This document shows, piece after piece, positions 27,762 through 61,837 of a stretch of 64,000 bases of DNA; within the stretch, counting starts at the first letter, position 1, and each line of letters opens with the position of its first letter. The DNA lies in NCBI GenBank assembly GCA_021209875.1, contig JAGYVD010000003.1:1364001-1428000 (forward strand), written 5' to 3'. The notes beneath the pieces are model-generated. The model had not been told where the DNA came from and did not search any database. It saw only the letters and a program-made list of their open reading frames with translations. The position numbers were made by a program, and so were the translations under genes. This stretch comes from Rosellinia necatrix (taxonomy: Eukaryota > Ascomycota > Sordariomycetes > Xylariales > Xylariaceae).

Positions 27762-29480
27762 ATGAAGCATATAGACAGCGTAGAAATGGTGGCACTTTGG
27801 ATCCTCATCGTCCTGGGTGCATGCCTTACGGCCTCTTGGCCGGTCCCCATCGCCCGACGCGCAGCCCCCAGCTGCTCCGTCGACTACTTTGCCAGCATTC
27901 TACCGGCCGGGGCGCGCGTCGAGCGCGTCCAACATGTGACCGCCGGCTTCTTCGTCGAGACGGGCAACATCGGGTACCCGACCTTCCCCACCGGGTTGCC
28001 GGAGCTCTGCGCCGTGATCGTGCACAACGTCACGTCGGACTACCGGTTCGGCATGTTCCTGCCGGACGTCTGGAACGCGAGGCTGCTGACCATCGGCTCG
28101 TACGCGTTCCTCGGCGGGATCAACTGGCTCGAGATGGGCGTCGGCGTCAAGTACGGCGCCGTGACCCTATCGACGGACACCGGGCACAGCTCGGGGGCCG
28201 GGGACATCACGTGGGCCAACACGACGCAGAAGCAGGTGAACTGGGCCTACCAGGCGCTGCAGGGGTCGATCCACGCGGGGAAGGCGCTCGCGGCGGCGTA
28301 CTACGGCCGGGGCATCGCGTACACGTACTTCAGCGGGTGCTCGACGGGGGGGCGGCAGGGGCTGAAGCACATGCAGCTGGACCCGGCGGCGTTCGACGGG
28401 GCGCTGATCGGGGCGCCGGCGTGGGACACGAAGCACCTCATGCCGTGGGTGGCGCGGGTGGCGGCGTGGAACCTGCCGGAGGGGGCGGCGCACAGCCTCG
28501 ACGACGCGCGGCTGTTCGCGCGGCTGCAGGCCGAGGTGCTGGCGCAGTGCGACGGGCTCGACGGCGTGCGGGACAACATCGTCAGCGCGCCGGACGCGTG
28601 CCGGCGGGCGTTCGACATCGGCCGGGTGCGGTGCGACGTCGCGGCCGACGGGGCGGCCTGCTGGACCGCGGCGCAGACCGAGACGGCGCGCCGGATGTAC
28701 GCCGACTACGTCGCCGCGGACGACGGCCGGCTCGTGCACCGCGGGGCCGAGTACGGCTCCGAGCTCGAGTGGGCGACGTACCTGCTGCCGGCGCCGGCGG
28801 GCGACGAGGGGCCGGGCAACGTGCGCCGCGGCTTCGACGCCCAGTACGAGCGCTACTTCATGGGCTACGGCCCCGCGTGGCCGACGGCGGCGTACAACGA
28901 CTCGGTCGTGGCCGACGCCGAGGCCCGCGACGAGCGCGGGCCGCGCGCCAGCGCCGACGCGTTCGACCTCGGCCCCTTCCGGCGCCGCGGCGGCAAGATC
29001 CTCATGTACGCCGGGCTCGCGGACAACGTGGTGCCGGTGCGGCACACGACGCTCTACTACGAGCGCGCGCGCGCGGCCACCACCGCCGCCGCCGCAGGGG
29101 GCGAGGGCGTGGACGACTTCTTCCGCTACTTCCAGATCCCCGGCATGGGCCACTGCTGGGGCACGCCGGACAACGTCAAGGCGCCGTGGATGATCGCCGG
29201 CGCGGGCCAGTCCGTGCAGCGGCCGCCGTACGCGTCCGCCTGGTCCGTCCCGCTCGGGCTCGGCGGCGACGCCACGCACGACGCCCTGCTCGCGCTCGTG
29301 GCCTGGGTCGAGGACGGGCGCGCGGTCGAGCGCGTCGTCGCGTCCGAGTTCAACTTCACCGACGCCGCGAAGCAGAACATGGTGCTGCACCGGCAGCGCC
29401 CCATCTGCGTCTACCCGAAGACGGCGAGGTGGGATGGCCGGGGGAATCAGGACGATGCGGCGAGCTGGGACTGTAGCTGA
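27762..29480 (+). CDS. Secreted tannase / feruloyl esterase family protein, 572 aa (564 from the second ATG)
   Basis: Single exon. The second ATG (27786) gives a better signal peptide (MVALWILIVLGACLTA) than the first, so the mature protein likely begins after ASWPVP or the dibasic RR. Family features: the nucleophile elbow SGCSTGGRQG (Ser194), acid Asp421 in GLADNVVP and His464 in GMGHCWG. Cys193 and Cys465 flank Ser and His; this CS-D-HC arrangement, in which the Cys pair forms a disulfide, is characteristic of the tannase family. The lid region contains a CDGLDGVRDN motif that resembles the calcium-binding loop of the family. The enzyme hydrolyses esters of aromatic acids such as gallate or ferulate in plant material, outside the cell. 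Third positions are extremely GC-rich, which creates long false frames on the other strand. Confidence 0.95.
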   Translation: MKHIDSVEMVALWILIVLGACLTASWPVPIARRAAPSCSVDYFASILPAGARVERVQHVTAGFFVETGNIGYPTFPTGLPELCAVIVHNVTSDYRFGMFLPDVWNARLLTIGSYAFLGGINWLEMGVGVKYGAVTLSTDTGHSSGAGDITWANTTQKQVNWAYQALQGSIHAGKALAAAYYGRGIAYTYFSGCSTGGRQGLKHMQLDPAAFDGALIGAPAWDTKHLMPWVARVAAWNLPEGAAHSLDDARLFARLQAEVLAQCDGLDGVRDNIVSAPDACRRAFDIGRVRCDVAADGAACWTAAQTETARRMYADYVAADDGRLVHRGAEYGSELEWATYLLPAPAGDEGPGNVRRGFDAQYERYFMGYGPAWPTAAYNDSVVADAEARDERGPRASADAFDLGPFRRRGGKILMYAGLADNVVPVRHTTLYYERARAATTAAAAGGEGVDDFFRYFQIPGMGHCWGTPDNVKAPWMIAGAGQSVQRPPYASAWSVPLGLGGDATHDALLALVAWVEDGRAVERVVASEFNFTDAAKQNMVLHRQRPICVYPKTARWDGRGNQDDAASWDCS

Positions 29481-29788
29481 CGGGCGTGAGCGATCTTACC
29501 ACTAAGGGGGGAAGAAGGGGAGGGGAGGGGTTTAACTTCGCCGAGATAAAGATGAGCTTACTGGATATATATGGACTTGTAGCTACCGAGAGTGTACTCG
29601 GGCTTTCAAAGAAGAAGAAAAAAAAAAGGTATTTTCTTGAGCAACGCTCGAAATTGTCTATAATACAAGCGCTTCTATTCTATCAGCAGTTCAACCACAC
29701 GTGTATGTACCCAACCTAAATACCAAGAAATGACACCCCCTTTCTATACACAGACACATATCCATCTTCACGGATAGGTATTATATCT
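29481..29788. other. Intergenic region between converging genes
   Basis: 308 bp, AT-richer than its neighbours, with an A-rich purine run near 29611-29627. It likely holds both polyadenylation regions. Confidence 0.5.
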
Positions 29789-31231
29789 CTATAGCTTCCC
29801 CTTCTCCTTCTCCCCGCTGCTGCTGCTGCTGCTGCCGCTGCTGCCGCTGCTCTCGTTCTTCCGCCGGATGATGCCGTCCTGGTACTCGGTCGCGACGTGG
29901 ACGCCGCGCGGGCTCCAGATCTTGCAGTAGACGATGCCGCGGCCGGCGTGGACGCGCGGGAAGGACGTCTCCTGCAGCCACCACACATCCCCGCCCTCGG
30001 CGCCGGCGTCGGCGTCGGCGTCGCCGTACGCCATGACGGCGTCCGCGGCGTTCACGTGCACGACGAACGAGTAGCTCAGGCTCGCGGCGCGGCCGAAGGC
30101 GTGCCCGTAGCCGGCGTGGTCACCGATCATGAGCAGGCCGTTGCGGTCGGCGGCGTACGCGTGGGCGGCGACGTGGGCGTCCGGGCCGGCGATCGCGCAC
30201 TCCCCTTCATCCCCCGTGGTGGCGACGGTGGCGGGGAGCGGGGCCAGCAGCCTGTACAGGACGAGCTCGCGGCGCTCGTGGAACGGGCGGCCGGCGTTGT
30301 ACGCGCGCATGTCGACCTTGCGCATGTCGAGCCCGGGGAACATGCCGACGGCGCGGCGGGCGCCGGGGACCGCGTCCAGCACGCCGGCGATGTCGACGGC
30401 GGGCGCCGGGTCCCACTGCGCCGGCCGCCGCGACCCCAGGACGGCCGCGAACCGGCGCCACGCCGACGGCGCCTCCGCCGCGTCCGCCTGCGTGACCCCC
30501 GCCGGCCGGAACGACACCAGCGCGCTGAAGCACACGGGGCCCAGCGGGAGCGCCGCGTCCGCCGCCGCCGGGTAGTGGTCCCCCGCCGCGCTCGTGCTCG
30601 CCCGCGCCGGCTGCCGCGCCGTCACCAGGTAGCTCGGGAACAGCGCGTTCGCGGACAGGTTGGTCACCTCGTACACGAACGGGCGGTCGGTGCGCCCGCC
30701 CTCGGAAAAGAAGCCGTGGATCGTCTGTTTGTTTCGGGACCGTTAGCTTTTTCCTTCCCCACGCTCTCTCTTTCTTTTTTTCTTTCTCTCTCTCTCTCTG
30801 TCTGTCTTTCTCCTCCACTAGTGGACCGCGACGCGACGAAACGAACGCGCCCGGCATGGCTTGGTAACGGGATAGTCATGGGGGAGCGTTTGTTTTCTTA
30901 CGTGGATTCCGAAGTCCTTCCCCCGCAGGCCGGGGTCCTGCGCAGCCCGGTACGTTAGTGAGGCGGCGAGCCCGGACTGGCTGTAGACGTGACCGCCGTA
31001 CGCGCCCGTGCCCGGCGAGCGGTAGTCGCTGGCGCGCTCGGCCATGGCGAGCGAGACGAGCTCGTCGCCCGTGACCCACACCCTGCGCCGGCTCATGTAC
31101 CGCTTCACGACCTTGCCTCCGCCGTTATCGTCCGCCATGACCTTGTCCGGCAGCGGCGTCAGGCTCATGGCCTCCTGGAACGGCAGGCGGCCCTGTCCCG
31201 TCCTCACCTGCTCGGCTGGTAGAAGCGCCAT
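29789..31231 (-). CDS. Acyl-CoA thioesterase II (TesB-like double hotdog), 421 aa
   Basis: Exons on the minus strand: 31231-30902 and 30724-29789. The 177-bp intron (GTAAGA donor, ACAG acceptor) contains a GA/CT-rich microsatellite. The junction recreates DFGIHTIHGFFSEGG, a family signature at the end of the first hotdog. The second hotdog includes LMIGDHAGYGHAFGR and AASLSYSFVVHVNAAD, and the end reads WLQETSFPRVHAGRGI. Such enzymes cleave fatty acyl-CoA to free acid and CoA, commonly in peroxisomes. The C-terminus is a Ser-rich tail encoded by a CTG/CCG repeat and ends in GKL, close to but not a consensus PTS1 signal. Very GC-rich codons, like the neighbouring tannase. Confidence 0.9.
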
Positions 31232-40613: not shown

Positions 40614-43157
40614 TTATAAACTACCTACAGCGGCGGGGCGTTGGGGTCCATCATGCACTGGTCGACGCGCATGAGCTGCTTGCCGGTGGCCTTGGCGATC
40701 TGGATGAACTGGGGGGAGGTAGCTGACGGTGCTCTCGTAGAGGTAGTGCATGACGGTGATGCTGCCGCCGGCGGCGACGTCGCGGCGGAAGGCGTCGATC
40801 TGCTTCTCCGGGGTCGGGGTCTCGGCCCAGAGCCAGTCCTCGATGTCGACGCTCCACTGGACGATGTAGGGGTCGGGGACGAGGGCGGCGTAGCGCTGGC
40901 GCATGCGGGCGCCCTCGGTGCCGAAGGGGGGCCGGAAGTAGCGCGTCCCGTTGAACCCGGCGCCGAACACCTGCTGCACGGCGCGCAGGTCGTTGCCGTA
41001 CTCCCAGTCGATGGCGGCCTCGGACGGCAGGCCCTCGAGGGCCGGGTGCGTGTAGCTGTGCAGCGCGATCTGGTGGCCCTTGGCGGCCATCTCCTGGTAC
41101 ACGTTGCTGAGGTTCGTGGACGGGTCGAGCAGGGGGGCGCCGACGGTGAAGAAGGTCGCCTTGAACCCGGCGTCGTCGATGATGCGCATGACGCGCTGCG
41201 CGAAGGCCGGGTCGCCGTCGTCGATGGCGAAGGCGAACGAGTTGGGCCGCTTGCAGGCGAAGGCGAAGGTGCCCGAGGGCAGCTTGACGGGCACCTTGAA
41301 GGACGCGGGCACGCGGTTGACGACCTCGATCTTGGTGAAGGTGGCCGGGTCGGCGGTGTAGAAGCCCTTGAAGGCGACGCCGACGACGCGGCTGCGGTCG
41401 ACGTTGAAGTGGTTCATGGGGATGTAGATGTCGGTGGCGGTGGCGTAGCGCGCGGCCTCGAGCGAGTCCCACGTGGCCGGGAACGGCTGCAGGTCGCCGT
41501 TGCAGGCCTCGTTGTGCTGCTGCAGCGCCACGCTGAACTTGTTGCTGCCCGTGTAGGCGATGTGCAGGTACGCGCCGTCGAAGGGCCGCATGTCCCGGCA
41601 CGTGGCCGACACCTGCGTCTGCCAGGTCAGGTCGGCGTCGCTCGTCTGCAGCGTCATGCTGCCGCGGCGGTACGTGACGACGAGGCCCTCGTCGTCGGAG
41701 CCGTGCCAGTTGCCGAGCGCGTTGGTCTCGGCGCTCGCGAACGCGTCGATCACGAGGTTGGTCGCCGTCGACGTCGGCGCCGCCACCGTGCCCGTCGGCT
41801 TCGTCGGCCCGCTGACCGGCGGTGGCACGTACTCGGCCACCGTCGTGCCGCAGTACAGCGCCATGGGACCCAGCGTCACCGCCCGGCTGAGGCCCGAGAG
41901 GATGATCATCGAGAACTTGCTGTAGTCGAGCCCGGGGTACTTGCTGAACGGGATACTGTACAGCTGCTCCCGGCCGTTGAAGGTCCAGCCGAGGCTGCGC
42001 GACGTCACCGTCACGTCCGTCGTCGCCTCGCCGTTGCACGACCCGTCCCGGCTCGACGACAGCTGCACGTTGAGGGTGGTCCCGGCCGCCGCCGAGATCC
42101 GCAGCGAGATGCCGCCGTGCTCGCGCGCGTCGAAGCACCCCAGCTGCGAGTAGAAGTACGAGTCCGTGCTCGCCGGCGTCAGCGTCACCCGGTTGCTCGC
42201 CGACACCACCACCGACGTCATCGTCCCGTCGTCGCTCGTCGGCTTCAGCATCGCGTTGTAGAACAGGAACGTCAGCCGCGACTGCGACGCCCAGTCGTCG
42301 ATCGGCGTGAGCGCGCACGCCCGCTTGTCCGCCGCCGCCGGGCCCGCCGCCGCCGCGTCCGCCGCCGCGCGGAGCACGAGCGCCTGCCGCTGCTCGTCGC
42401 GCCTGCGGTCCTCCTCGCTCCTGCTGGCGGGGTTGGGCGTGGGCGTGGGCGTGGGCGTGGGCGCAGGCGTGGGCGTGGGTGTAGGTGTAGGTGTGGGATC
42501 GCTGGGCGGCGCGGCGTCGGCGCAGAGGAGCTTGAAGTCGTCGAGCTGCCATTCGGTGACGTTGTCGCTTACGCCGTACGAGAAGCCGAACCACACCAGC
42601 CCCACGACGGCGTCGAGGTTCGCGCCCGTCCAGCTGCTGAGCGGGACGGTGATGGTCTCGAGGGAGCCGCTCAGGCCGTTGACGGTGTAGTAGGAGCTCT
42701 GGTACTCGGTCGCCGAGCAATTGGCCTTGGTCTGTAGCTCGAGCGAGACGGAGGCCGCCTCGGGGCCCTTGATGCTGAAGGAGAAGCTGTCATACCGGAG
42801 GGCGACGGCGTCGACGCAGTCGAACTGCTCGTACACGTACGAGGAGTCCCTATCCTTGGGCACAAATTTCAATGTGCCAGTACTCGTGTCGGTCGAGTTT
42901 AGGGTGCCATCGTCTGGGTTTATTTAGCTCTATTCAAGTACACTAGCCTCTAGATAAATTCGAGTTTAAGGAGTGGTCTTACCGCTGGTAGCCCCCGCTA
43001 GAGTATTTACCCCGGTTGACCACGACGAGAAGTCGTCGATCAGGAGATGGCTCTTGCATGCCGTAGTAGGGATTTGCCGTCTATGGGGCACCGCCGTCGA
43101 CGATACCTCGCCGACGAGTAGCGCCGCGGCGACGCTGCCGACGATAGGGAGCAGCAT
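40614..43157 (-). CDS. Secreted multi-domain polysaccharide (chitin) deacetylase, frameshifted at the 3' end
   Basis: Exons on the minus strand: 43157-42983 and 42913-40614, joined through a 69-bp intron (GTAAGA donor, CCAG acceptor). A signal peptide (MLLPIVGSVAAALLVGEVSS) precedes three similar beta-sandwich modules that begin LLIDDF, ALTPIDDW and LVIDAF. The first two are separated by a (PT)n linker. The C-terminal NodB domain has all motifs: AIDDGDP with the catalytic Asp pair, HSYTH for the metal, RYFRPPFG, a WSVDIEDW segment and ITVMHY. It should remove acetyl groups from chitin or a related polymer in the wall or medium. After YESTVSYLP the frame is wrong: deleting one G from the G6 run at 40711-40716 gives a natural end with stop codon at 40627-40625. 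As read, the protein is 824 aa with an aberrant Arg/His-rich tail. All catalytic motifs lie before the break. Confidence 0.88.
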
Positions 43158-53534: not shown

Positions 53535-54760
53535 CTACGGCAGCTCTGAAACTCGCTCCCGATATGTCTGTTCTGCGCGGGTCCAAACACCCTCCGTTTT
53601 ACGGTCCCGCAGCTTCAAAAGACTAGGGAGGAGCAAGCCGGAATACTCATCGCTTGCCTCACGAGCAATCATGGTGGGAAGATGATCAATAGCAATGATG
53701 CGCAGCTCAGGCCCGTCTAGTGTGCCCGATGCTGAAATAGTCGGGTTGTCGAAAGAGCTGTATCCGGAATAGACAGGGATTGGGTTGTTCTTGTTGTCCG
53801 GGTCACAGCTCACATCACATATCACGCGAAGCCGCCTCTCCGGCGTCGACAGCGATTCGAGCGTAGTAAAAGGCGGGATCCGGTGTGCCCCTAGATAGAC
53901 ACAGTTGAGGAGGATATCCACGCCGACAATCTCGGAAAAGGGACCGCCACGGCGGGTTTCTTCCAAGTCCCATTTGAGAACGGAGTCCTCGGGGATTCCC
54001 ACAGCGCGGCAACATTCAGTCGCTCCTTTCCCGCAACGACCCAGGGCCCCAATGATCATGAGGCGGGGATATTTGCCGTCATTCAGTGGCAGCGCTTCCG
54101 CGACGGAAGATCGAACGAGTTCTACCAACTCAGAGGCGGAGTCGAATGCTGGTACTGCGCCTTGGGGAGCCCCGGGGTGAAGGAGTTGATGCGCCCAGGA
54201 CAACAGGGCCAGCGCAGCACCAGAATAGCCGGCGCTGAAGCCGAACGCCGCTACGCGCGTACCTCTTTCATCCACGAGAAATTCCAGGTCATAGAGCAGA
54301 CCGCCGGCCTTGGCAAAGCGCGAGAGCTCGGTGGCCCATTTGTCCTGCTTCTTAAAGCAATGGGCAAAGTGAATATATACGTGTGGCAAGGGCGCTAGAA
54401 ATGGTGTTAGCAGCCATATCCGGGCTCTAGGCATGATCGTACGCACTGCCGTCTGCCGGAAGCTCTTTCAAGCCCAGGATGACGTTATCCACGGGGGCGT
54501 CGACCCACGACCCGGCAGGGACCATCTCAGCACCGGCAGCCTCGAATTCGCTATCACGATAGATGCGATCTGGCGACGGTTCGACTCGCACGACGTACCC
54601 GGCATTTATAAGAGCCTTGGTCGTCTCGGGCGATACTGGTTGATTTTGTCAGTCTGGTGTATGTGAACTTGGGACTCGGGGGGTTAGTTTTTCTGCGCAT
54701 ACATGGAGAACGCCGCTCAAAGGGCTTGGTCTCGGCCCTCAGGTGAATAATAGGCGACAT
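53535..54760 (-). CDS. LYS1: Saccharopine dehydrogenase (NAD+, L-lysine-forming), 368 aa
   Basis: Exons on the minus strand: 54760-54703, 54635-54447 and 54394-53535. Splice phases fit exactly and give HLRAETKPFERRSPLSPETT, the N-terminal signature of LYS1. Further blocks are GAEMVPAGSWVDAP, NVILGLKELPADGT and PLPHVYIHFAHCFKKQ, the last with the catalytic-region His. The NAD-binding part is near YPRLMIIGALGRCGKGA, and CDVSCDPDNKNNPIPVY follows. The length is near the 373 aa of the yeast enzyme. It performs the last step of the alpha-aminoadipate lysine pathway: saccharopine + NAD+ + water to lysine + 2-oxoglutarate + NADH. A CAT/CAC microsatellite sits directly upstream of the ATG. The protein appears intact. 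Confidence 0.96.
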
Positions 54761-54771
54761 GGTGATGATGG

Positions 54772-54812
<41 letters not shown>

Positions 54813-54822: not shown

Positions 54823-55866
54823 GCAACGAATTGGCGGCTGTTCGACTTGCAAAATCGAAGGTAAGCCTTGGTTTCTGTCTGTAGCGAGTCACAACCTCTG
54901 GTGTCGTTCGAAGTCTCACGGAGAGTTGGGCGTATTAGTAGGATAAGTGCCAGAAGCAGTGCGTTTGCGATCTCGGTGATGTACAGTCATTCGGGTGAGA
55001 GAAAAAAAGGGAACAGGGAGCTTACCTAGCGAGTACCTGCGTCACAGCCCCCCCCACCTGTTGGGCTTGTAATGTCTCTTTCACTAAAAAATGAAGGCAT
55101 AGGCCCTGGGTAGCCTTCTGGTCGCTGAGCTAAACACTCTGTTAGTGGACGACAGAGGTAGTACCCACGTGATTTTTGGTGTATAACCCCGCCCTGGAGT
55201 GTTCTGAAGCGCCCTAGAGGCTTGAGCCAGGCATAACAGTCCACCTCCCAATAACTACTTAAGTAACTACCTGCTTGAACTAACTATTTGATTTCGTTCT
55301 GTTTTTCTACAAATATGTTTGCTTCGGAGAGCGAAATAGCAAGAACCTTAATCAACAACCCCGTACGCTAGGGCACGCATATGTCAGACTCTCAAGTTGG
55401 CTTACGCATCCGTAGCTGCTGCGATGCACCGACCGTGGACTGCTAACAACTTTCGCAGCGGGGTGACATACTCATGCTCCAGGACTCCTCCAAGAGGGGT
55501 GAAATACAGTACATGTCACAATACTGCGTTATGGGGGCCGTCTCCGGCACAATCCACCCGTGGACCTATCTGAACGGCCTGAGTCATCCTGCACCCAATA
55601 GTTAACGTGCTGGTGCGGGGCAAATACCCGGAACCTGACATTGAGATTTCATCATAGATCCTAGGCGCTCGACCTCGCGGGCTGAGGCCTAGAGGCCCTT
55701 GCTTGAATGTGACTGTCGCACGGGATAATTATCTATGGAAAGCCGACCTCGCTGCGAGGTACGCGTCAAGGACTCACCCGTACGCCTACTCCGGATGGTG
55801 TTTACTCTGGGTGGTGTTTACTCTGAGTGGTGTTTACTCTGAGTGATGTTTTACTCTGAGTGGTTT
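54761..55866. other. Intergenic region
   Basis: About 1.1 kb between LYS1 and the bacterial-type remnant. Apart from the two repeats listed I see no gene; the sequence does not clearly continue the bacterial homology. Confidence 0.5.
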
Positions 55867-55877
55867 TTACTCTGGGT
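55797..55877. repeat. 16-bp tandem repeat, five copies
   Basis: Units at 55797, 55813, 55829, 55845 (17 bp) and 55862, with consensus GGTGTTTACTCTGAGT. The last unit overlaps the 3' edge of the hldE remnant. Confidence 0.9.
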
Positions 55878-57022
55878 TCAACGGGTCATATCGAGACACC
55901 AGGAGTATGCGAACGTCGCCGCCGTCGGCACACACTTCTATTCTTCCCAAAGTATCCTCTGGCTTGTAATCGCCGCCTTTTGCCAACAGGTCACGCAACA
56001 CACTCACCGTCAGGTGCTGCCGCGCGTCTTCTTCCGATGACACAACCCAATTGACGTATTCTAGCGCTGCCAGCACCATTATGTGCTTCGTTAACGGGTT
56101 TACTGGCCGGCCTTCCCCCTGAGACGTCTAGTAGATGTATCGCTATTCACCGCAACAGCCGATCGATCGCCTGGATGCCCGGCATTGACGAGATAGGGAA
56201 CGTGACCTGCATGTAGAAAATCGAATACGCCGTTGGTTGGTCATGACCACCTTCTCTCCACGCTCGCCCGCACGCCCGATGGCAACTTCCAACTGCTCTT
56301 CGCTCACAATGCCGAAGCCCTCGCCAGGATACGCGTAGATGATCGTTTCCAGCCCAGCCGGCCTGACAGTTGAGACGCCCAGTGTCCCGGCCACGACGCC
56401 CGCCAAGCTGCCGACCCATTGGCGAGGAAGCAGGCCTCTTCGAGCGAGTCGCCTACCTCCAGCGCCGGTCACGTCGCGCACCCCCGCGCCTGGGCGACAA
56501 GATGCGGAGGCGGCTTACCGGTATGTAGCGGGACCATGCTGCTTTCGGATCGCGCAATCAACAGCGCGGAAAATTCATGTTCCACCACCAGACACATACC
56601 ACGGCTGACTATCTCATCAACGCTGTCGCATTTACCTACGACCACCTCGAACTCTGTCGGATTTGGCGCCGGTAGTGCCGCCCCCCCGGCGACGCTCAAA
56701 GTCAGCCCCTTTCGGGCCGACTAATACAGGCACCTTCGTCTCACGCGCCAGCTTGACCATGCCTTCCACGCCGTTGAGCGCGCCTTTTGCATACCGAGTC
56801 AGAGAGCACCAATACGCCGGCGGCCAGGGACTGGCGCAGGCGCTGATGGACCAGCACGGGATCAGCCTGGCCGAAACCTTCAAAATCGAGACGGATCAGC
56901 GGCTGGTCGCCGCGACACCACGTGTGTTTTGGTGATGGTGGGACGTGCCTCCACCACAGCGATATCATATCCCCGACACTGAGCACCGAAGCGCGGTCAA
57001 ATGTGGGCAGGATAACTCTCAT
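55867..57022 (-). pseudogene. hldE: Decayed bacterial hldE (heptose-7-P kinase / ADP-heptose synthase) remnant
   Basis: Read on the minus strand in shifting frames, this matches HldE from end to end. The start MRVILPTFDRASVLSVGD lies at 57022; then come [59 protein letters not shown], the kinase signature DVTGAG, LGVSTV, GFGIVSEEQLEVA and GEKVVMTN. The nucleotidyltransferase part has [36 protein letters not shown] and LLAKGGDYKPED. It is broken: I count at least five frame changes, one in a C/G run near 56682-56690. About 90 codons of the kinase domain are deleted after the first 25, and about 14 more after DVTGAG. The protein makes ADP-heptose for LPS, which fungi lack, so the copy must come from a bacterium (closest in feel to Enterobacterales). 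It cannot encode a working enzyme. Single-gene match from memory, but over many independent blocks. Confidence 0.9.
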
Positions 57023-58698
57023 TCCAGGTACTGAAGCGAAGTACTGTGGCATCAGCAGTGAAAAGGGGGGATATAGGGGGGATATAGGGGGGGGTATAGG
57101 GGACCAATTCGTCTGGGTTTGTTTATACAACGAATGGTGTTTATTGCTCTGGCTGAGGATCTTTCGAGGTATCTTTTCCATCGCCAGTGAGCCATTTGGT
57201 TCGAATCCCATTTTCCTGGACCTTCGTTGGTCAAAGCTAGCAGTGCCAGAAGTGCCAGCCGTCGGCCTCACAGTGTGGAGGGACTTCACCGTATACAGTG
57301 GCATTTCTGAAACTGTGTTGTCATCCTTTGTGACTATGGGCGGTGCCAGACATGTGATGAGATATTAGCCCGCATTACGGCGGCAAAATATGCATGTATC
57401 ATCGACGTACTTCTCCTCTTGATTGCTACTGACAGCAACCTTCGGCATGAGCACATCACCGGACGGTATAAAATGGCTGACAGCGACAATTTCAGCTGCC
57501 AAGATTGGCGCCAGGCGCTACCCAAAACTCTGAGACTGTAACCAATATCTTGCCAGAGCCAAAGAGTAGCCAGGAAGGGGTGTCTCGGAGAGGGCTGTGA
57601 TTCGACGTGGCTTTTCCTTTGCTGAACTTATGGCGCCTCTGGACTATTTAAATCCTTCAACTACTTCTATTGCTTGCTTGCCACCATCGCATCGTGGCGT
57701 ATATACGCGGGTCTTTAGCCCATCCTCCTTGAGCTGTAAGCCCTAGCAAGCGCCGGTTAATGATATACCGGCTGGGTGAATCTATGTATTTATGGCCCCC
57801 TTATTTCTTATTTAGGAACTGCGGTTCCTATGCCGGGTCGTGTAGCGGCGTGCTCTAGTCTTTGCGCTTGAATATCGCTACTTGCTTATAAGTCTAGTTG
57901 TGTGGTAAGGCTGGAGATAAAAGTACCCAGGTTTGCCTAGTAAGGCCTGCCATAAGCGCAGTACCTTTATGTAATGTCAACCCGAAAGAAAACTACAGAG
58001 GCCCACTGTTAGCCTACCATATGCACGATGTCAACTATTAGCTGAATAACGCCTGCATGTGGATTGACAGGTCTATTGCCGAGTCCAGCCTCTCTGTAAG
58101 CCTCTTTGTTTTAGTCTTCCGTGTTTAGACGTTCAGCAGAATGCAGATCTATCCTTAATGATGCAGGATAAACCAACGGTGTCTGTTCGAGTCAGCCACC
58201 CCCGCTTCCTTCCCCTCGGATTCAATCTTTCACTGGAGTTTTATTCGATGATGGCACGGCTATGTGGCGGTCCGCACAGGGCCGAGACCTGAGTCTCGAA
58301 AGAGTGTGCATGCATCCGCCAGTCTCACTTCCGTAAGATCATCATCCAGTATTGTAACGATCTTGGCGATGGAGGCTTGGGTGAACCATATTTCTTCCTT
58401 TTCAGGCATAAAATACGGGTGTCACATAACCTGAGATGCTCAGCAGGTGAAAATGCTCCGTATCCATGGTTGGCCGAACCAACTGACACTTGAAGATAAC
58501 CTGCAGAGGTAGTAAATCTATCGTCAGAGATCTAGGATGCCAAATCTCTCTGTAGGTAGACCCATAAAGAACCTAAGCAATTTCTAATATCACGTTTTGT
58601 GAGGACTGAAATAAGTCAATAAATTTCCGAAAGGTAGAGTCAGCTATGTAAACTGTAGAATGTATCAATTGAATATGGACTTGCAATATCACTGCTAT
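57023..58698. other. Intergenic region
   Basis: About 1.7 kb with no supported gene. A G-run repeat lies at 57065-57102. A tRNA B-box-like string at 57198-57208 was rejected. Confidence 0.5.
57065..57102 (+). repeat. (GGGGGGATATA)n G-run repeat
   Basis: Four runs of at least four G separated by ATATA/TATA spacers, just upstream of the hldE remnant; potential G-quadruplex. Confidence 0.8.
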
Positions 58699-60718: not shown

Positions 60719-61837
60719 CTAATTCGGATCGTCGTCGAAGAATGCCGCGAGATGGCTCACCACATCACCGATTGGTGGCCCTCCAAGAATAACAAGGAGC
60801 AGATTTATCGCCAACGGAACGTACGGTAAAACTTTTTTGAATCCCGTGGTGAGCCTTGACCTTTTAGTCTCTCTCTTAATCTGCTGTTCAACTTCCTCCA
60901 CGATATCTCGCTTCAGACTCACTTGTTGCTTCTCCGCGTCCTTCAGATTCCCACTTCGTAGCCGCATATCTGCTTGGATCTGACGCCCCATAATGCGATC
61001 GTCTTCTCGGAGCTGCGAGCGTAGAGTCTCGAGATCTCGCAACTCTTTCTCGAATTTGGCCCTTTGTTCGCTCAGGCCATCGCTCACATAAGATCCAGCC
61101 GCGGTCTCGTCTAAGTTCTTTCCTTCGTTGGCCATCTCATCCTGCAGTTGTAGCAATACGTTTTCTTTGACGAGGATTTGCGCTGTAATGGCTCGTGCTG
61201 AGCCGCTATCGCCGTGATACCGACACAAACTAGAACCGTGGCCTAGCATGTAGGCCCAGAACTGTTCTCGGAGCTCGCGTTCTCTGGCCGCCCCAGTTGA
61301 CTCGTCAACATCACCCCATCTGCTGGTCACTAGAACTACATTTCTCATCGCGTTGATCCCGCAAATACGCTTGAAGACTTCAAAAGTCTTGATTGCTGAA
61401 CCAGCGTACCTGTTGTCCGTAATTCTGTGGATATAGATAATACCCTTGAGCTGCACACCGAGGGCATGTTGACCCGCAAGGAGCTTTGCAATTTCGGTGA
61501 GAATTTCAGAGTCTTTGCGATTGCTATCATCAAACCCCGGGGTATCAATTATCAATGCTTTAGTGCCGCCCACTGACACTGGGATCGGCGTGCACTGTTG
61601 TGTGCCTAGAGGAGAGCCCATGATATTAGCAAGTGCGTTTTCAGTCCAAGTATTACCACTGTGGCCATACTTACATGAGTTTAGCGACGCGCCTTCTGGA
61701 ACGACAGTTCTGCCAGCTAGTCGATTGATGAAATAGCTCTTGCCGGATCCAGTCACCCCCATGATAAGTATCATAGGAGGGCCACGATCGGCGTCGAGCC
61801 GAATATCGGCAATGTCTGGGGACTCGGCTCTGCTCAT
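60719..61837 (-). CDS. AIG1/IAN-like GTPase with coiled coil and C-terminal membrane segment, 349 aa
   Basis: Exons on the minus strand: 61837-61675 and 61605-60719. The 69-bp intron (GTAAGT donor, CTAG acceptor) contains no stop and is a multiple of three, so unspliced RNA would still code for 372 residues. The spliced form reads LNSCTQQCTPIPVSVGG, which fits the family better. Motifs: G1 GVTGSGKS (residues 27-34), switch Thr in the TQQCTPIPV region, G3 DTPGFDD and a G4-like VLVTSRWGD without the usual NKxD. A coiled coil follows (DETAAGSYVSDGL through EEVEQQIKRE), then a hydrophobic segment near the end (VPLAINLLLVILGGPPIGDV) and an acidic tail DDDPN. AIG1-type GTPases work at intracellular membranes and in plants and animals are linked to immunity; the fungal role is not known. 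Confidence 0.86.
   Translation of the reverse strand: MSRAESPDIADIRLDADRGPPMILIMGVTGSGKSYFINRLAGRTVVPEGASLNSCKYGHSGNTWTENALANIMGSPLGTQQCTPIPVSVGGTKALIIDTPGFDDSNRKDSEILTEIAKLLAGQHALGVQLKGIIYIHRITDNRYAGSAIKTFEVFKRICGINAMRNVVLVTSRWGDVDESTGAARERELREQFWAYMLGHGSSLCRYHGDSGSARAITAQILVKENVLLQLQDEMANEGKNLDETAAGSYVSDGLSEQRAKFEKELRDLETLRSQLREDDRIMGRQIQADMRLRSGNLKDAEKQQVSLKRDIVEEVEQQIKRETKRSRLTTGFKKVLPYVPLAINLLLVILGGPPIGDVVSHLAAFFDDDPN

Follow-up and report, generated by a model that had tools for sequence, protein, structure and literature searches.

This locus raises the question of how a stretch resembling the bacterial gene hldE came to lie beside LYS1 in the genome of the fungus Rosellinia necatrix, and whether it is a contaminant, a fungal gene or a bacterial gene that entered the chromosome and died there. 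All positions below refer, where not otherwise indicated, to the window, i.e. the whole 64-kb stretch of DNA that was analyzed (contig C7, 1364001-1428000, in an assembly of 49.1 Mb and 12 contigs). Our analysis revealed that positions 57022-55903, on the minus strand, are a degenerate copy of bacterial hldE. We consider it highly probable (about 0.9) that this copy is a pseudogene that came from a bacterium and became fixed in the fungal nuclear chromosome, with one hldE-sized, Pantoea-type piece having been captured upstream of LYS1 and having decayed since. The features of the locus are as follows:

53535-54446, minus strand: LYS1 (saccharopine dehydrogenase) ORF, host flank, with no Pfam match of its own
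55796-55874: 16-bp minisatellite, 4.9 copies, ~30 bp or less from the 3' edge of the fossil
55903-57022, minus strand: hldE fossil (D-glycero-beta-D-manno-heptose-7-phosphate kinase / 1-phosphate adenylyltransferase), start codon to ~codon 455 of 474
55903-56240, minus strand: adenylyltransferase-domain remnant with HAGH, in two frames
56320-56944, minus strand: kinase-domain remnant with DVTGAG, in all three frames; domain end approximate
56945-57022, minus strand: 5' hldE remnant, first 20-25 codons, with a 223-nt internal deletion relative to Pantoea septica
57023-57037, minus strand: putative bacterial upstream remnant, CTGGA-ATG also present in P. septica; short, and recognized by eye
57064-57102: 11-12-bp G-rich tandem repeat, 3.2-3.5 copies, near the 5' edge of the fossil
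60719-61837, minus strand: P-loop GTPase-like ORF, with MMR_HSR1 above its cut-off and AIG1 and Dynamin_N below theirs

An earlier note, made from the sequence alone, had described blocks of HldE on the minus strand in the right order over almost the whole gene, and this description is borne out by both profile and tblastn searches. All six minus-strand frame pieces tested matched the NCBIfam HldE model NF008454 in colinear order, at profile positions 113-151 (E 0.0012), 149-189 (5e-10), 179-254 (4e-16), 290-346 (5e-10), 345-386 (1e-15) and 384-457 (2e-22). With tblastn, residues 113-151 and 149-456 of P. septica HldE were found on the window at E 1.6e-54, and residues 1-25 at 57022-56951 (E 2e-4); the reversed window, as a control, returned nothing at E <= 1 with the same protein. 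At the DNA level, the fossil is 68.2% identical to P. septica hldE over 1,103 bp (E 9e-153, blastn against 80 bacterial loci). The N-terminal PfkB-type (rfaE type) kinase domain is recognizable from profile positions 113-254 and 290-346 together with residues 1-25, with ~74 codons deleted near the N-terminus, and two C-terminal pieces matched TIGR02199 (E 7e-14 and 6e-15); the DVTGAG and HAGH motifs named in the earlier note are both retained. Homology begins at the A of the ATG (57022), perhaps ~15 nt farther upstream as judged by eye, and ends around codon 455 of 474 (55903), the last ~19 codons being absent. Accordingly, 55903-57022 of the stretch originally delimited as 55867-57022 holds up, but 55867-55902 has no hldE homology and overlaps the 16-bp minisatellite.

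The fossil is colinear with the HldE of P. septica and P. piersonii (NF008454) over almost the whole protein, but it differs from them by nine frame-changing indels, deletions of 223 and 35 nt, the loss of an aspartate and the ~19 missing codons. The best fossil piece scored 113.8 bits against a curated HldE cut-off of 521 bits (NF008454, PRK11316), which was thus not reached. The aspartate following DVTGAG, which is presumably the catalytic base, has been changed to glycine; given this loss and the nine frame-changing indels, we regard the copy as a pseudogene of hldE and not as an HldE. It cannot encode HldE, and most likely has no function at all, since the frame is broken throughout, the aspartate is gone and no fungal substrate is expected for HldE alone.

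With respect to the donor, a protein search with the read-through translation scored a capped set of 7,997 candidates and returned 2,218 matches; the 120 of these that were listed were of HldE length, the legible names among them were all bacterial, with Pantoea among the first, and the bacterial relationship proposed earlier is upheld, the relatives being bacterial HldE. The read-through is 65% identical in amino acids to P. septica HldE over residues 38-385. Among 295 genomes drawn from the family of P. septica (243 matched), P. septica itself was the best scorer with 401 bits, followed by 386.5 and then 369.1 bits or less. Separate scoring gave 399.8 bits for P. piersonii and 392.3 for the Plautia stali type-B symbiont. 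The blastn runners-up among the 80 bacterial loci were P. piersonii (68.1%), the type-B symbiont (66.6%) and P. dispersa (66.3%), with the remaining rows among the best 60 alignments at 65.9% or less. In trees that contain only bacteria besides the fossil, the fossil groups with P. septica, P. piersonii and the type-B symbiont (FastTree support 0.993; the same grouping in a quick IQ-TREE run of 28 rows, SH-aLRT 89, not starred) and is placed outside this trio (0.858 in FastTree, 86 in IQ-TREE). Constraining it with P. dispersa was rejected (AU p 3e-5), as was constraining it with E. albertii, K. pneumoniae and Serratia (AU p 2e-4), both groups having been chosen after the first tree. The fossil branch is very long (0.54 in FastTree and 1.06 in the quick IQ-TREE), hence its exact position within the tree is unsure. 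As judged from these scores and trees, the fossil is nested in a bacterial clade and the donor clade is Pantoea, on the P. septica/piersonii side.

The decay is more extensive than first described. Frame breakage had been recognized in the earlier note, but its minimum of five frame changes plus two deletions was too low: relative to P. septica we counted 11 indels, of which 9 are frame-changing, comprising deletions of 223, 35, 3, 3, 1 and 1 nt and insertions of 8, 4, 4, 1 and 1 nt (sizes depend on the alignment), the largest being the 223-nt deletion behind the first 20-25 codons. The fossil differs from P. septica at 0.198 of first, 0.191 of second and 0.474 of third codon positions, vs. 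0.066, 0.050 and 0.366 for P. dispersa. Since living Pantoea differ mainly at third positions and the fossil equally at first and second positions, this pattern reads as two phases, with divergence of the donor under selection followed by decay that would have struck all positions alike; the excess at third positions would stem from donor divergence before the transfer. Where the 80 Enterobacterales show no variation, the fossil is changed at 29 of 196 first positions and at 42 of 252 second positions (Fisher p 0.60), and 53 of 192 invariant amino-acid columns are altered as compared to means of 57-61 in neutral simulations, with the radicalness of the amino-acid changes also within the simulated neutral range. 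On these comparisons, the decay looks neutral, as if unconstrained.

Of the 544 first and second positions that are conserved across 22 Erwiniaceae-type loci, 89 have changed, 71 of them by transition, corresponding to ~0.19 substitutions per site (Kimura, by hand), as against 11 indels. If fungal rates lie between 1e-9 and 1e-8 per site and year, the age would come to roughly 20-190 million years, a figure on which we put no weight. The decay is not recent, and on this ground the fossil should be present in every R. necatrix strain and probably in other Rosellinia as well. An old transfer into the fungal genome, as put forward in the earlier note, is thus supported, with "old" resting on how far the copy has decayed and on the assembly.

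One feature of the substitutions ran against expectation. At conserved first and second positions, AT-to-GC changes (53 of 266) exceeded GC-to-AT changes (26 of 278; p 6e-4); this lean was more marked in the 5' half, with a p of 0.001 vs. 0.12 in the 3' half, and had, at columns common to the three P. septica-clade loci, a p of 0.003 at first and second positions, 0.57 at third positions and 0.20 overall. The local intergenic DNA is 48-51% G+C, and PMC10796067 puts published R. necatrix assemblies at 45-46% GC and R18 at 45.5%. Given the GC content of the host, an AT-to-GC lean is unexpected, and we offer no explanation for it. Repeat-induced point mutation (RIP) was considered as the decay agent and rejected: GC-to-AT transitions showed no CpA excess (CpA 3/38, CpG 14/124, other 7/128), AT-to-GC changes exceed GC-to-AT changes, and only one copy of the fossil was found.

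The surroundings of the fossil appear to be those of a fungal chromosome. Across 94% of its length, the LYS1 ORF shows 99% identity to Rosellinia necatrix, the next best being Xylaria polymorpha at 89%, confirming the fungal flank that had been assigned to this side; the GTPase gene assigned to the other flank likewise finds a counterpart in the P-loop GTPase-like ORF recognized by Pfam. On the latter side, which belongs to the same contig and was examined by Pfam only, two ORFs at 58.7-60.0 kb had no Pfam match. A junction-spanning ORF, in a protein search with 145 candidates, had no match at E <= 0.001, a result that weighs neither for nor against a transfer. The fossil is embedded among these host genes on a chromosome-sized contig, which has matches up to 5.18 Mb and is hence at least 5.18 Mb long; a published R18 assembly (PMC10796067) likewise has 49.1 Mb, in 11 contigs made up of ten telomere-to-telomere chromosomes and one mitochondrial contig. 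A single copy of the fossil was found in the genome. A repeat carrying the fossil was rejected, as each flank had one match in the genome; this search passes over simple repeats and very frequent words, so that a short, common element could have escaped it. Short tandem repeats adjoin the fossil on both edges, and 18 tandem copies of ATG lie at 54759-54812, upstream of the LYS1 ORF.

A ~1.1 kb bacterial gene fragment in a single assembly could in principle be contaminant DNA stitched into a fungal contig, but such a chimera is very improbable here, as it would need two joins 1.1 kb apart with no neighboring bacterial gene alongside, and as the best match among the 80 bacterial loci reaches only 68%; the nine frame-changing indels, together with differences at ~16% of those first and second positions that are invariant elsewhere, amount to a kind of decay that no live contaminant would show, in line with the earlier argument from the lack of an open frame. 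Descent from a fungal PfkB or nucleotidyltransferase gene might be entertained insofar as both superfamilies have further members in this genome; however, the two other matches to the HldE model scored 23.6 and 23.5 bits vs. 113.8, 110 and 34 for fossil pieces, and together with the 68% DNA identity to Pantoea hldE these scores led us to reject a fungal origin, to which we give practically no credence. Arrival by way of a phage or plasmid, instead of as a piece of bacterial chromosome, would suit a small, single-gene fragment, but this route appears even more doubtful than a chimera. A search of plasmid and phage records found matches in just nine plasmid records and one phage record, with none from Pantoea among those listed; of the eight plasmid records listed, four exceed 4.7 Mb and four have 354-791 kb, while the phage record is of 691 kb and is named Salmonella enterica, and because of these sizes and this name the records look like chromosomal pieces. 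Their identities were 64.1% for the one covering more than 80% of the query and 66-70.5% for the others, over 32-58% of it. Phage or plasmid carriage thus found no support in this search.

The alternative that we rate least remote, although still improbable, is that an intact gene arrived, served the fungus for some period and only then died. A fuller version, in which a transfer tens of millions of years old and genus-wide in Rosellinia once yielded a working enzyme, we judge just as improbable. If it were true, a fungal lineage would once have carried part of the bacterial ADP-heptose pathway. The fragment does begin at the start codon, and there are no in-register stops in 341 codons when neutral simulation expects 2.2-4.1 (P 0.10 to 0.017, depending on the spectrum), which mildly favors some period of coding constraint. 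Against this, the frequency and the radicalness of changes at invariant columns come close to those of the neutral simulations, with first positions faring as second positions do, and the supply of substrate to HldE depends on GmhA, such that HldE alone should, on general knowledge, have none.

Returning to the pseudogene reading, we propose that DNA from a bacterium of Pantoea type, whose lineage is sister to the P. septica/P. piersonii clade and which lived in, on or near the hyphae, would have entered an ancestor of R. necatrix, and that a gene-sized piece (approximately start codon to codon 455) may have been end-joined into the intergenic stretch upstream of LYS1, next to the present minisatellite. 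End-joining at a fragile place would fit with this 16-bp minisatellite, which however proves nothing. To our knowledge, no heptose-7-phosphate is to be expected in fungi, and from what is known of the ADP-heptose pathway HldE alone should be without a substrate there; for this reason, we surmise that the captured hldE escaped selection and decayed through transitions, small indels and the 223-nt deletion.

Transfer from bacteria to fungi is already known. In yeast genomes, passages of PMC2715888 describe single bacterial genes inserted in syntenic regions between conserved fungal genes, likewise a case of bacterial DNA among fungal genes, but those transfer candidates are treated there as genes, in contrast to the decayed relic in Rosellinia. 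For the chytrid Batrachochytrium dendrobatidis, the abstract of PMC5005798 gives 19 transferred bacterial genes, again moving from bacterium to fungus as in Rosellinia. We did not find the Rosellinia hldE case in print among the open-licence PMC papers listed for horizontal transfer in Rosellinia, for Rosellinia together with Pantoea, for horizontal transfer of hldE in eukaryotes, for fungal pseudogenes of bacterial origin or for transfers in Xylariales. The main text of PMC10796067 contains no word starting with "horizontal", and passages of PMC3782478 and PMC13315312 name no Pantoea partner of Rosellinia; in the latter, Pantoea is named once, for Massospora, and Rosellinia is unmentioned.

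A Pantoea donor also suggests that the ancestors of Rosellinia may have had a bacterial associate. As far as we know, surveys of gene transfer in fungi start mostly from predicted proteins, and would therefore see those transfers that stayed open. Pieces that were dead on arrival, like the present one, represent the missing denominator: they could reveal the rate at which bacterial DNA enters fungal chromosomes whether or not it is of use, and could provide a clock for such entry where loci are dated.

As for further bacterial DNA, the bacterial hldE neighbors glnE, ribB and zupT were absent from the 64-kb window at E <= 1, and a larger bacterial island was rejected on this basis. We also searched with four DNA queries from P. 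septica, which total 66 kb, or ~60 kb once overlaps are removed, and represent ~1.4% of a 4.3-Mb genome; hldE was recovered, so an identity of 68% is within reach of this search. Besides hldE, these queries yielded a 51-bp match in what we take to be an aldo-keto-reductase-like gene, a match that we take to be ketoacyl-synthase-like, and an intact GH88 gene, with one query being without matches. Given the small share covered, further relics may lie elsewhere in the genome. The GH88 ORF (L135:1432-2559; contig C10, ~774.8-775.5 kb) is open and uninterrupted over 375 aa, with 58% protein identity to the P. septica GH88 gene and 69% DNA identity over 629 bp; it may, on this resemblance, be a separate live bacterial transfer or a member of an ancient common family. 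Within the window, G+C rises to 62-68% in 2-kb windows at 27762-30676 and 40614-42872 vs. ~50% around them, with long ORFs open on both strands; these GC-rich peaks at 27-31 and 40-43 kb were first suspected as bacterial DNA, but the long ORFs in them are provisionally taken for host genes.
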